From NCBI GenBank assembly GCA_001769385.1, contig MEPB01000094.1, positions 1 to 64,000 of the forward strand: a DNA stretch of 64,000 bases, in the 5' to 3' direction. Source of the stretch: Bacteroidetes bacterium RIFCSPLOWO2_12_FULL_35_15. GTDB taxonomy: Bacteria; Bacteroidota; Bacteroidia; 2-12-FULL-35-15. Position 1 is the stretch's first letter; each line of letters starts with the position of its first letter. This document shows positions 20,658 to 59,948 of this stretch, one piece after another. A program made the translations under genes and the position numbers. The notes below the pieces were generated by a model, which saw only the letters and a program-made list of their open reading frames with translations, was not told the origin of the DNA and did not search any database.

Positions 20658-21362
20658 ATGAAAACACTTCAAAAAATCATTTATTTTATTTTTATTGGAA
20701 TCCTGTTTATTGCATTATCAAACACTTTTGTTCTTGCGCAGAATAAACCAAAAGGAAAAGAATGGAAAGTTCCTGATGCGGATGCAAAAAAGAAAAGTGC
20801 TATAAAAGCAGATGATGCAGCAATAAAAGCAGGTAAAGAAATCTGGGTACAACAATGTAAATCATGCCATGGTTCAAAAGGATTGGGTGATGGCGCAAAA
20901 GCTGAAAAAATAGATATTTCCTGTGGTGATTTTTCTTCGGCAGAGGTACAAAATTTAAGTGATGGTGCTCTTTACTGGAAAATAACCCAGGGAAGAAAAC
21001 CAATGCCTGGTTTTTCAGATAAACTTAGTGATAACGAGCGTTGGCAAGTTGTGGCATTTATGAGAACATTAAAAAAAGGCGGAGCTGCAACAACTACTTC
21101 TACAACAACAACTAATACAACCACTACAACTACCAAAACAACTGACAGTAATCCGGTTAAAAAAGATGACACAACAGTTAAAAAGGATACGGTAAGTACA
21201 ACCACTGTGGTGAAAACAGAAAATTTGATCAAGTCGGATACCACAAAAATTATGTTCTACCAATACCAGCAATTGCAAACTGAGATTGAACTTTTGAAAA
21301 AGCAAATGGCTGAATTGAAAGCTAAGATGGAAGCAATAAAAGAAGAAAAGGATAAAAAATAA
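20658..21362 (+). CDS. Exported c-type cytochrome with Thr-rich linker and coiled coil
   Basis: The 234-residue protein has a signal peptide (ending VLAQN). One cytochrome c domain follows (about 50-135) with heme motif CKSCHG (residues 72-77) and axial Met in KPMPGFSDKL. A low-complexity linker of Thr with Ser, Asn and Lys (about 140-165) comes next, then a Lys/Asp/Thr-rich segment and a final coiled coil (QLQTEIELLKKQMAELKAKM). A short soluble heme domain on an extended tether suggests attachment to, or contact with, a larger periplasmic complex. The stop codon TAA (21360-21362) is also the left target duplication of a mobile element. Confidence 0.9.
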   Translation: MKTLQKIIYFIFIGILFIALSNTFVLAQNKPKGKEWKVPDADAKKKSAIKADDAAIKAGKEIWVQQCKSCHGSKGLGDGAKAEKIDISCGDFSSAEVQNLSDGALYWKITQGRKPMPGFSDKLSDNERWQVVAFMRTLKKGGAATTTSTTTTNTTTTTTKTTDSNPVKKDDTTVKKDTVSTTTVVKTENLIKSDTTKIMFYQYQQLQTEIELLKKQMAELKAKMEAIKEEKDKK

Positions 21363-21865
21363 GAGCCTGTTTAAAATTGGGTAAAAGATTAGATTTTTAA
21401 TATTTTTTAGCGTTTTGTCATTCGACCAGAGGGAGAAATTTCATCTCGGTAAACAGATTTCTCTCTTCATTTCATTGCGTTCGAAATGCAGTCCCTAATG
21501 TCATTTCGACCAGAGGGAGAAATCTCATCTCGGTAAACAGATTTCTCTCTTCATTTCATTGCGTTCGAAATGACAGTCCCTAATGTCATTTCGACCAGAG
21601 GGAGAAATTTCATCTCGGTAAACAGATTTCTCTCTTCATTTCATTGCGTTCGAAATGACAGTCCCTAATGTCATTTCGACCAGATGGAGAAATTTCATCT
21701 CCGTAAACAGATTTCTCTCTTCATTTCATTGCGTTCGAAATGACAGTCCCTAATGTCATTTCGACCAGAGGGAGAAATCTCATCTCGGTAAACAGATTTC
21801 TCTCCTCATTTCATTGCGTTCGAAATGAACATATAAAACATTTTGAATGAAACTTAAACAGGCTC
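21363..21865. mobile_element. GAGCC-ended gene-free element with TAA duplication
   Basis: The ends are GAGCCTGTTTAA and its exact reverse complement TTAAACAGGCTC, a 12-bp perfect terminal inverted repeat. They are flanked by direct TAA triplets at 21360-21362 and 21866-21868. The interior is five copies of an 85-bp palindromic unit plus short arms. No transposase is encoded. Removal of the element and one TAA rejoins the cytochrome c stop codon to its own terminator at 21890. Confidence 0.85.
21417..21829. repeat. Tandem array, five 85-bp palindromic units
   Basis: Units start at about 21417 (first one slightly shortened), 21500, 21585, 21670 and 21755. Each opens gtcatttcgaccagaggga, passes through gagaaat and atttctc complementary blocks and closes gcgttcgaaatgac, then agtccctaat. 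Each unit is therefore an imperfect hairpin. Units differ by only a few bases, which points to recent amplification. Confidence 0.9.
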
Positions 21866-21889
21866 TAAATTTTTCAAAAAAAATTCTTG

Positions 21890-21916
21890 AAAGCCGAAAT
21901 TTTTTTCGGCTTTTTT
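21890..21916 (+). terminator. Rho-independent terminator
   Basis: Stem AAAGCCGAAA (21890-21899) with TTTCGGCTTT (21904-21913), a 4-base loop and a six-T run. It would lie about 20 bases after the cytochrome c stop if the mobile element were absent, so it is the original terminator of that gene, now displaced by 506 bases. Confidence 0.9.
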
Positions 21917-21980
21917 ATTGGCTTAAACGTCTCTGAATTTTTTTATCATGGAATAGTAAGGGTCTGTTTGTGTGGTCAGT

Positions 21981-22122
21981 TCGAGTATTTTTCTTTTTTT
22001 GAAAAATGTATCGAGAACGTGTGTAGGCAATAAGAGTTCGAAACAAATTTTCGTGTAATTACTTCTCTAGTTGCACTCGAGTATTTTTCTTTTTTGAAAA
22101 ATGTATCTGGAACGTGTGTAAA
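21981..22122. repeat. Two copies of a 46-bp repeat
   Basis: The block tcgagtatttttcttttttt, then gaaaaatgtatcgagaacgt, then gtgta occurs at 21981-22025 and again, with tctgg for tcgag, at 22077-22120. Each copy folds on itself (TTTTTC/GAAAAA). From 22123 to 22282 the spacer holds only AT-rich sequence with small aattcg-type repeats leading to the cystathionine beta-synthase gene. Confidence 0.7.
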
Positions 22123-22282
22123 GCTTTCAAACTTAAAAAAAATACGAATAGTTTTTTTTAATCACAATAAGCCAATTATTTGCTCGAAAAAAACAAGATT
22201 ACTTGAAACTTTATTTTCGTATTTTCGCATTCTGAAAAAAACAAGATTCGTAATTCGCTAAATTCATAATTCGTAGTACAAT

Positions 22283-23653: not shown

Positions 23654-23785
23654 GAAAAAATGAATTATTTCCCCCTTGTGTGATTGTTTGTGTGTATGAG
23701 ATGGGGGGAGTGCGGGAAGGTGTGTTGCAGGGGGATGTTTTTGTAGAGATGTTTTTTGTGCAAAAAGGAAAATAAAACACAGTTT

Positions 23786-23975
23786 CGTATTCGTAGATTT
23801 ATATAGCAAACACAGATTCGTAAATTCGTACAAATTCGTATTCGTAGATTAACACAGATTAGTAAATTCGTAAAAATTCGTATTCGTAGATTTATATAGC
23901 AAACACAGATTCGTAAATTCGTACAAATTCGTATTCGTAGATTAACACAGATTAGTAAATTCGTAACAATTCGTT
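23786..23975. repeat. Two tandem 93-bp units of attcgta-rich DNA
   Basis: The block cgtattcgtagatttatata, then gcaaacacagattcg, occurs at 23786 and again at 23879 with an almost identical continuation. Within each unit shorter attcgta and cagatt motifs are repeated. Neither strand looks coding (composition is biased and no domain is seen). The rest of the 344-base gap (23654-23785) shows a G-rich patch (23700-23740) but nothing identifiable. Confidence 0.85.
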
Positions 23976-23997
23976 TATTCGTAACCAAAATTGCTTC

Positions 23998-43649: not shown

Positions 43650-44387
43650 ATGGTATCACTTTCTATCTTTTTCGCATTTTCCCTTATCGGGATCATTATT
43701 GGAGGATTAGCTACTCTGGTAACATTAATATTTACAATACTTGCATTAGTAGCAGGGAAAAACGAAAATGCTGCCTATTGGGCAATTGGTTTTGCCATTT
43801 CTATTTCAGTAGTTATTTTTTCGGTAGTTCAAATGGCTGAGCGTGTAAGTAATAAAGTTAAATCTGGCGTGGAGTGGTTGAAAGAACACGAAAATACTAG
43901 TTTTACCACGGAAGATGATCAGTTAGATTATTCAAGATCGGAACGTGATAATTTAATGGATACCCTTAAATTATTTGTTGATAACAGATATAAGAATGTT
44001 ATTCCTTTTTCCTTTTATCAAGATAAGGGTCTGGATTCTGATACACTGCCTTTTATTTATCCGTATGCATTTGAATACAAAGACTATAATTTTAATTTGG
44101 TGAATGTGCTTCAAAAGAATTCTATACCCATGGTTGGCCATATCTCCCAATTGGCATACGATAACCAGTATCTGTTGTTGAAAGTAGATAAAACAAATAT
44201 GGAATTAAAAAATAATGAACCGGAAATTTCCTATTTTCTGATTGATCTGAAAAGCGGCAAACAAACTCAATTCTTAAATTCAAAAAAATTAATAGAAGAG
44301 GCTTCCGCAATGGGATATAAAGGAAATACCGAAATGATGTATATTTCAGATCTTTACCAGGCTTGGTTTGCAACTAATTATGATTAA
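43650..44387 (+). CDS. Hypothetical membrane protein
   Basis: The 245-residue protein opens with two membrane helices (about 3-38 and 42-62: FAFSLIGIIIGGLATLVTLI, then AYWAIGFAISISVVIF). A soluble region of about 180 residues contains SRSERDNLMDTLKLFVDN, SFYQDKGLDSDTLPFIYPY and a final FLIDLKSGKQTQFL segment. No family is recognised. A TATTTTTG promoter element (43619-43626) precedes it. Its stop overlaps the next gene's start by eight bases, so the two are translationally linked. Confidence 0.7.
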   Translation: MVSLSIFFAFSLIGIIIGGLATLVTLIFTILALVAGKNENAAYWAIGFAISISVVIFSVVQMAERVSNKVKSGVEWLKEHENTSFTTEDDQLDYSRSERDNLMDTLKLFVDNRYKNVIPFSFYQDKGLDSDTLPFIYPYAFEYKDYNFNLVNVLQKNSIPMVGHISQLAYDNQYLLLKVDKTNMELKNNEPEISYFLIDLKSGKQTQFLNSKKLIEEASAMGYKGNTEMMYISDLYQAWFATNYD

Positions 44388-45171
44388 AAAGATTTTTACT
44401 ACTGCCTATTCTTCTGCTGAAAGCGAAATTAAAGCATCCTCCAAACCCGACTACAAAGTAATACTTATTTGTATCACTGTTGCTTTTTCTCTAACGATGA
44501 TCAAGTATTTGGGCGATTTTAAATTCATGCTTTCTTTTCTTCATAATGCCGGATTCACAGGCTTGTCAGACTCTTTTGAGGATCTCTGTACCATCAATAA
44601 AAATGCGGAACTCTACCGGTTGCTCTATTGGGTTTCAACTGTAATTTTTTTCTATTTAATTCCTCCGGTCATCTTGATAAAATTTGTTTTCAAAGAAAAA
44701 TTTTCATCCTATGGTTTAAATCTCAAAGGTGCTTTCGCGGATTATAAAATTTACCTGTTGATGCTGTGTGTGATGATCCCTTTAGTGTTGTTTTTCTCTC
44801 GTACCGAAAGTTTCCAGGCTCGTTATCCATTTTATAACATCGCTAAAGGCGAATCGTTTTACCCCAATTTAGTGATCTGGGAACTGTTTTATTTCATTCA
44901 GTTTTTTGCACTCGAATTTTTCTTTCGCGGATTTATGTTGCATGGTACCAAACAACGTTTTGGATATTATTCTGTTTTTGTCATGACCATTCCGTATTGC
45001 ATGATACATTTCGGAAAACCGCTACCGGAAACTATTGCAGCGATCATTGCAGGAATTGTATTAGGCACTTTAAGTTTAAAAAGCAGGAGTATCTGGCTCG
45101 GAGTTGCTATTCATTACAGTGTGGCCATTACTATGGATCTGTGTTCGATGTGGCAGAAAGGGGTATTATAA
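44380..45171 (+). CDS. CPBP-family intramembrane metalloprotease
   Basis: Read from ATG 44380, inside the end of the preceding gene; a TTG at 44368 also exists. The 263-residue protein has six or more membrane helices and the CPBP/Abi motifs: FALEFFFRGFM (motif 1), MIHFGKPLPE (motif 2) and a late AIHYSVA (motif 3). The first Glu of the usual EExxxR is Leu here, while the second Glu, Arg and both His are kept. Relatives are Rce1-like proteases or bacteriocin-immunity proteins, and the partner gene upstream suggests a two-component membrane unit. Confidence 0.87.
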   Translation: MIKKIFTTAYSSAESEIKASSKPDYKVILICITVAFSLTMIKYLGDFKFMLSFLHNAGFTGLSDSFEDLCTINKNAELYRLLYWVSTVIFFYLIPPVILIKFVFKEKFSSYGLNLKGAFADYKIYLLMLCVMIPLVLFFSRTESFQARYPFYNIAKGESFYPNLVIWELFYFIQFFALEFFFRGFMLHGTKQRFGYYSVFVMTIPYCMIHFGKPLPETIAAIIAGIVLGTLSLKSRSIWLGVAIHYSVAITMDLCSMWQKGVL

Positions 45172-45181
45172 TTAACGACTG

Positions 45182-45589
45182 GCATTTCGAACATAATGGA
45201 AATGGAGAGAGAAATCTGTAAATCGAAGATGAGATTTCTCCCCTTGGTCGAAATGACATTAAACGCTGTCATTTCGAACGGAATGAAATGAAGAGAGAAA
45301 TCTGTTAATCGAAATGAGATTTCTCCCCTTGGTCGAAATTGACATTAACGAAGCCATTTCGAACGCAATGAAATGAAAAAAAATCTGTTAATGGAAGATG
45401 AGATTTCTCCCCTTGGTCGAAATGACATTAACGACAGTCATTTCGAACGGAATGAAACCAAGAGAGAAATCTGTTTATCGAAGAAGAGATTTCTCCTTCC
45501 AGTCGAAATGACAAATTCAAACTGTCATTTCGAACGCAATGAAATGAAGAGAGAAATCTGTTGATGAAAGATGAGATTTCTTCTTGGTT
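45182..45589. repeat. Tandem array, five units of about 86 bp
   Basis: Units start near 45182, 45268, 45353, 45437 and 45524. They read gtcatttcgaacggaatgaa, then gagagaaatctgttaatcga, then gagatttctcccc, and close ggtcgaaatgac. It is the reverse complement of the array at 21417 but more diverged, and is not enclosed by visible terminal inverted repeats. It occupies the whole gap between the CPBP and PBP4 genes. Confidence 0.88.
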
Positions 45590-50497: not shown

Positions 50498-50560
50498 TTT
50501 CGTTTTTTATTGTGCCAAATTAAGAATTTTAAATTATAGATTAGGTGGATGTTGAAATAC

Positions 50561-51160
50561 TGTGTAGTATGGTACGCAGATTTATTAAGATTGTTAGGAT
50601 GAAAAATGATTTTTAATCAGGTGGGGAAAGGAGTATGATGGATTTTAAGATTTAGATTTTGAATTGATTAGAATACTGTGTTGGATGGTACGCAGATTTA
50701 TTAAGATTGTTAGGATGAAAAATGATTTTTAATCAGGTGGGGAAAGGAGTATGATTGGATTTTATAATGAATTTAGATTGTTAAAAAATAGTGTACTGTG
50801 TAGTATGGTACGCAGATTTTTTAAGATTGTTAGGATGAAAAATGATTTTTAATTTGGTGGGGAAAGGATTAGGATTGGGTTTTATGATGAAATTAGATTA
50901 GTTAATAAATAGTGTATTGTGTAGTATGGTACGCAGATTTTTTAAGATTGTTAGGATGAAAAATGATTTTTAAATAGGTGGGGAAAGGATTAAGATTGGA
51001 TTTTATAATGAATTTAGATTAGTTAATAAATAGTGTATTGTGTAGTATGATATGCCGATTTATTAAGATTGTTTGGATGAAGATATTTTGAATTCTTTAT
51101 TTTAAGATACTGGTGTTATGGTAGAAGATTAATAAGATTAAAAAAAAAGAATTTAAAACT
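50561..51160. repeat. Tandem array, five units of about 120 bp
   Basis: Units begin at about 50561, 50678, 50798, 50919 and 51040 with gtgtagtatggtacgcagat. They run through ttaagattgttaggatgaaa, aatgatttttaat, aggtggggaaagga and gattggattttataatg. The acgcagattt/ttaagattgttaggat motif is related to a dispersed repeat also seen near 25170 and 55030. The last unit is degraded. Nothing else is seen in the gap apart from this, a gtcatttcgaccg half unit at 51243 and the mobile element at 51285. Confidence 0.88.
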
Positions 51161-51284: not shown

Positions 51285-51524
51285 GAGCCTGTTTAAATTT
51301 CCCTAAAATAAAATCCTATATAACATAAATTGCATGGTCACTTCGTTGCGACCCCTTCGACTTTGCTCAGGGTAAACTCCGGGAGTGTATCGAGAAGGCG
51401 GGGAGCATTGCGAAACAATAAGCTCTCGCACTTTCTCGATATGCCTTCCTGAAAAAGGAAGGCTACTCGAAATGACAACCCGCATTACGATAACAAATAA
51501 TTTGAACAAAATTTAAAAAGGCTC
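51285..51524 (+). mobile_element. Complete GAGCC-ended gene-free element
   Basis: The 240-bp element has ends GAGCCTGTTTAAATTT and the reverse complement of AAATTTAAAAAGGCTC (15 of 16 match). It is flanked by TAA at 51282-51284 and 51525-51527. The interior holds the CCTTCC/GGAAGG hairpin. It is nearly identical to 1-190 in the opposite orientation. Between 51528 and the aminotransferase gene only a TAACTTTG promoter element (51741-51748) is recognised. Confidence 0.85.
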
Positions 51525-59741: not shown

Positions 59742-59948
59742 AATTTGCGTTTCTATTCTTAAACATTTCAAAGTTATTTAAAGCCTGTTTAAATTTTACT
59801 CAAAATGTAGTGTATGTCATTTCGAACGCAATGAAATGAAGAGAGAAATCTGCTTGTCGAGATGAGATTTTTTCCTCTGGTCTAAAGACATTAAACTGTT
59901 TTAATAATCTATTCTTCAATTTTAAAATTTCAGAGAAATAAATTTCTG
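59742..59948. repeat. Decayed GAGCC-type element with one gtcatttcga palindrome
   Basis: At 59781 the sequence aagcctgtttaaattt differs by one base from the GAGCC end and follows TTA, a TNA-type flank. A single palindromic unit (59816-59889), the same as those amplified at 21417 and 45182, comes next. The matching right end is not recognisable. No gene is present. Confidence 0.55.

Follow-up and report, generated by a model that had tools for sequence, protein, structure and literature searches.

The closest described relatives of the element analysed here come from Porphyromonas gingivalis. BrickBuilt, a MITE of intergenic DNA in that species, lacks a transposase and carries an internal minisatellite of 23-bp units between IS5-like ends that start with GAG and resemble GAGACCTTTGCA; its duplications are irregular (CT, GAAA, AAAAA) (PMC4596501). 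MITEPgRS/MITE464, from the same species, combines IS5-type 12-bp ends, GAGACTGTTGCA, with internal tandem repeats of 41-bp units (PMC4596501).

Our analysis of the window, by which we mean the whole stretch of 64,000 nucleotides, revealed a 503-bp element of comparable build, inserted at the TAA that ends a cytochrome c gene. Like BrickBuilt, it is an intergenic Bacteroidota MITE with GAG-starting IS5-type ends, internal tandem repeats and no transposase. Unlike BrickBuilt, it has an 85-bp unit and ends reading GAGCCTGTTTAA, and the duplications of its family are uniformly TAA or TTA; with this unit and these ends it falls outside BrickBuilt itself and is similar to it in its working. IS5-type 12-bp ends and internal tandem repeats are also found in MITEPgRS/MITE464, but the 41-bp units and the ends of that group differ from those of the window element. 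We are highly confident in reading the 503-bp segment as a non-autonomous MITE that depends on the IS5 transposase family.

Results

Structure of the element

The features of the locus are as follows.

20658–21362, plus strand: cytochrome c gene, 234 aa (ORF list; Pfam Cytochrom_C and Cytochrome_CBB3)
21360–21362, plus strand: left target-site duplication TAA, the stop codon of the cytochrome c gene (sequence)
21363–21374, plus strand: left terminal inverted repeat GAGCCTGTTTAA (sequence)
21363–21865, no strand: 503-bp MITE without a gene (sequence, repeat pairing, frame translation)
21416–21828, no strand: 85-bp hairpin unit in tandem, 4.9 copies forming five hairpins (TRF; nhmmer unit positions)
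21854–21865, minus strand: right terminal inverted repeat TTAAACAGGCTC (sequence)
21866–21868, plus strand: right target-site duplication TAA (sequence)
21889–21917, plus strand: T-run hairpin, probable terminator of the cytochrome c gene (folding; counterpart in a relative)

These coordinates agree throughout with the sequence-only reading, which had described a 503-bp segment with perfect 12-bp repeats and TAA flanks, the left of them the cytochrome c stop: GAGCCTGTTTAA and TTAAACAGGCTC are perfect inverted repeats, and the ORF at 20658–21362 ends at that TAA. The segment had also been called gene-free, and the longest stop-to-stop frame inside it spans 60 codons. Translation of the element in frame 0 starts EPV*, and the left terminal repeat brings with it another in-frame stop three codons on (TAA GAG CCT GTT TAA). 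The element thus has the attributes of a MITE, being short, bounded by perfect 12-bp repeats, devoid of a transposase and flanked by a target-site duplication (TAA/TAA), with dispersed copies in the genome and an empty site in a relative. Its array has a period of 85 with 4.9 copies and 96% matches (TRF). Each of two single units that were folded forms a long hairpin (-20.9 and -23.5 kcal/mol), and the element together with the terminator reaches a folding z of -10.1 against shuffles. An Rfam search of the window returned two tRNAs and nothing else.

Origin of the hairpin array

The units of the window element are homologous to hairpin units elsewhere in its own genome, where a profile of the five units finds them singly or in arrays of up to eight, with or without ends. 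The sizes of the elements follow the number of units, with 75–92 bp for none, 161–164 bp for one, 281 bp for three and 503 bp for five. Expansion of the unit in place, within the element, is the simplest account of the array. It is also conceivable, if unlikely, that the core was an independent hairpin array captured between element ends, or that the MITE formed around such an array, since arrays of two to eight units without terminal repeats occur at several places, one of them in the window (45171–45581), and since three different core types are found between the same ends. Against capture, one-unit elements are the commonest form with the window-type core, and a one-unit size of 163 bp plus 4 × 85 bp gives 503 bp; moreover, units within the window copy are about 96% alike, versus a maximum of 88% with the other arrays identified, apart from one stray 76-bp match at 99%.

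The second array of the same unit in the window comprises about 4.8 copies with an 86-bp period and follows directly on the TAA that ends the ORF at 44368–45171. Two further sets of tandem repeats in the window are unrelated: one at 23784–23983, with periods of 42–93 bp, is built on TTCGTATTCGTAGATT, and the other, at 50558–51081, is a 121-bp array of 4.4 copies.

Landing on the stop codon

Whenever a stop codon is duplicated, the stop is restored automatically. What was proposed for this locus was an insertion at a TAA stop whose duplication rebuilt the stop; the insertion itself stands, and the landing on a stop is nothing special. Among 76 elements with matching flanks, taken from many genomes, three (3.9%) lie on the TAA of an ORF longer than 230 codons, namely the window element and, in two other genomes, elements at the genes for a 775-aa OmpA/PD40 protein (L102) and a 428-aa MFS protein (L214). 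The expected share is 3.7% (P(≥3) = 0.54), a rough null that takes the proportion of TAA stops among TWA sites outside coding sequence from simple ORF calls and the composition of one window. Because observation and expectation agree in this way, the landing is at about chance level and reflects no targeting of stop codons. That the family specifically seeks out gene 3′ ends or stop codons, so that the landing on TAA was selected or directed, is accordingly very improbable; such a preference could appeal to three exact landings on long ORFs in three genomes and to the second in-frame stop brought by the terminal repeat, but the observed share is that of a TWA-targeting element confined to non-coding DNA.

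A natural empty site and a probable displaced terminator

The best same-genus ortholog of the cytochrome c gene, in genome G006, encodes a protein 75% identical to that of the window and is followed by the same downstream gene. Its 3′ end reads gataaaaaaTAAattcc..., directly into the terminator, with the sequence ...GATAAAAAATAAATTCC... followed by a hairpin with a T-run within about 20 bases, and the flanks of the window element, joined across the element and one TAA, align to it directly. An empty site had been predicted for genomes without the element, and in this one relative it is there, the opposite of a conserved intervening sequence with no empty site. A precise secondary deletion in G006, in place of an original empty site, is formally possible but unlikely.

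When the element and one TAA are removed in silico, 21 bases (21869–21889) separate the stop from the hairpin at 21890, exactly the spacing that had been claimed. The hairpin with its T-run from 21890 folds at -14.1 kcal/mol (z -5.7) and its counterpart in G006 at -11.7 kcal/mol (z -4.7). Because both fold strongly, the ancestral cytochrome c gene most likely ended just before this hairpin, and the insertion with its duplicated TAA displaced the probable terminator 506 bp downstream. The terminator call rests on folding and on the G006 counterpart; a consensus terminator scan of the region flagged nothing, either inside the element or at the hairpin at 21890, which it missed. Since that scan found no site within the element, it is reasonable to suppose that the cytochrome c mRNA would read through five hairpins before reaching the terminator.

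Between the terminator and the next gene, the window carries at 21957–22130 a sequence, starting TAAGGGTCTGTTTG, that is probably related in degraded form to the second core type described below; G006 lacks about 250 bp corresponding to this region.

A family in the genome and across Bacteroidota

The end sequence GAGCCTGTTTAA occurs at 41 exact sites in the 5.39-Mb genome to which the window belongs and, with up to one mismatch, at 115 sites, compared with 20 for a reversed control pattern. All 16 end pairs with matching 3-bp flanks in this genome have TAA (8) or TTA (8), and the elements enclosed by paired ends there range from 75 to 503 bp. The same ends bound at least three core types: the hairpin of the window element, a second hairpin type with 29 matches in the genome and a third with 10. 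A scan of GTDB genomes for TWA plus the extended end gave at least 117 stretches, and among the matches listed nearly all are from Bacteroidota; the TAA and TTA counts of that scan are biased by a search pattern that demanded TWA on one side, and those of the own genome alone are unbiased. A literature text search for the GAGCCTGTTTAA string returned no match.

Several other copies lie in the window. A 240-bp MITE of the family, flanked by TAA duplications and built on another hairpin core, occupies 51285–51524, with a partial hairpin unit of the window-element type just to its left. A truncated MITE with the second core type stands at the contig start (1–190; end repeat at 179–190), and a one-ended copy (AAGCCTGTTTAA) with one hairpin unit is found at 59778–59893, downstream of another cytochrome-like ORF. 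At a further locus (L202, 960–2498), two family ends with matching TTA enclose an ORF that resembles fructose-1,6-bisphosphatase, an arrangement that may represent either a composite or two MITEs next to each other.

A probable partner insertion sequence in the same genus

An 863-bp IS in a same-genus genome (L227) has the same 12-bp ends, is flanked by TAA/TAA and encodes an intact transposase of 252 aa that scores 181.6 bits to NF033580 IS5 (cut-off 110). The search that led to it started from the protein of L209, a decayed IS of 856 bp that shares these ends and encodes DUF4096 and DDE_Tnp_1; a further copy with these ends measures 858 bp (L232). The probable partner of the family is an IS with the same ends, a target duplication and a DDE transposase of the IS5 family (L227; L209). 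The three ISs share with the window element the 12-bp ends and the 3-bp TWA target, but are about 860 bp long and have one transposase gene, which the window element lacks; MITE and IS ends have little sequence in common, 12 bp in all four ends and about 16 in some pairs. The three may belong to the IS1031-like group of IS5, with which their GAG ends and TNA target agree. The insertion in L227 (1262–2124) ends a neighbouring deaminase-like ORF of 157 aa with TAG, whose TA comes from the duplication and whose G is that of the terminal repeat.

Searches of the window's own genome with PF13340 and with the L209 transposase gave no match. That assembly consists of 110 contigs and is 99.4% complete, and the contig-edge repeats read in a check for hidden IS ends looked like MITE ends or chance matches and unlike the ends of an IS. 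Because no such transposase was found there, the local MITEs are either orphaned at present or served by an IS hidden in an assembly gap. Matches to PF01609, PF13340 and PF13359 in the own genome or the genus belong to unrelated IS5/IS1380 genes without these ends. A terminal repeat beside a transposase in L092 was also set aside; the IS there, whose own ends are different, appears to have jumped into the end of a MITE.

With 115 near-exact repeat sites against 20 for the control and a related genome whose site is naturally empty, the arrangement at the cytochrome c stop lies far beyond chance, and the claim of the sequence-only reading that it reflects true transposition is upheld by that empty site, by many other copies with 3-bp TAA or TTA duplications and by the IS with the same ends. 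A chance origin, in which TAA triplets and inverted repeats happen to surround an intergenic repeat of the ordinary sort and nothing has transposed, has a negligible probability, even in an AT-rich region where TAA and TTA are common (3863 of 64,000 positions); it is refuted by the empty site and by a genome-wide family with like duplications and an IS, both of which carry the same perfect 12-bp ends.

Discussion

We propose the following model for the origin of the element. A transposase of the IS5 family, encoded by an IS of about 860 bp with GAGCCTGTTTAA ends, would have moved the MITE in trans; the ISs of the relatives suggest that the enzyme acting on the window element was of this family. 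Insertion was into a TWA target (TAA or TTA), with duplication of 3 bp. At this locus the TAA target was the cytochrome c stop, and the left duplicate leaves the protein intact. The core would derive from a dispersed hairpin repeat that multiplied in situ from a single 85-bp unit to about five, and this growth probably proceeded by slippage or recombination inside the element.

What might the association between these ends and unrelated hairpins mean? We speculate, with considerable doubt, that one set of IS5-type ends, that of GAGCCTGTTTAA, acts throughout Bacteroidota as an exchangeable casing for several kinds of hairpin repeat unrelated to one another, and that these repeats also exist free of the casing and expand into tandem arrays. 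Were this so, the MITEs would disperse REP-like hairpins to the 3′ ends of genes and thereby alter mRNA tails.

The transposition event is well documented: its ends and duplication are present, one relative has a naturally empty site, and there is an IS bearing the same ends. The locus is a clean but ordinary example that leaves the current understanding in place. It illustrates that a TWA-targeting element can hit a TAA stop without damage to the protein while adding a second in-frame stop. In addition, it connects dispersed hairpin repeats with a MITE family found throughout the phylum, and shows that a minisatellite within a MITE is not confined to P. gingivalis.
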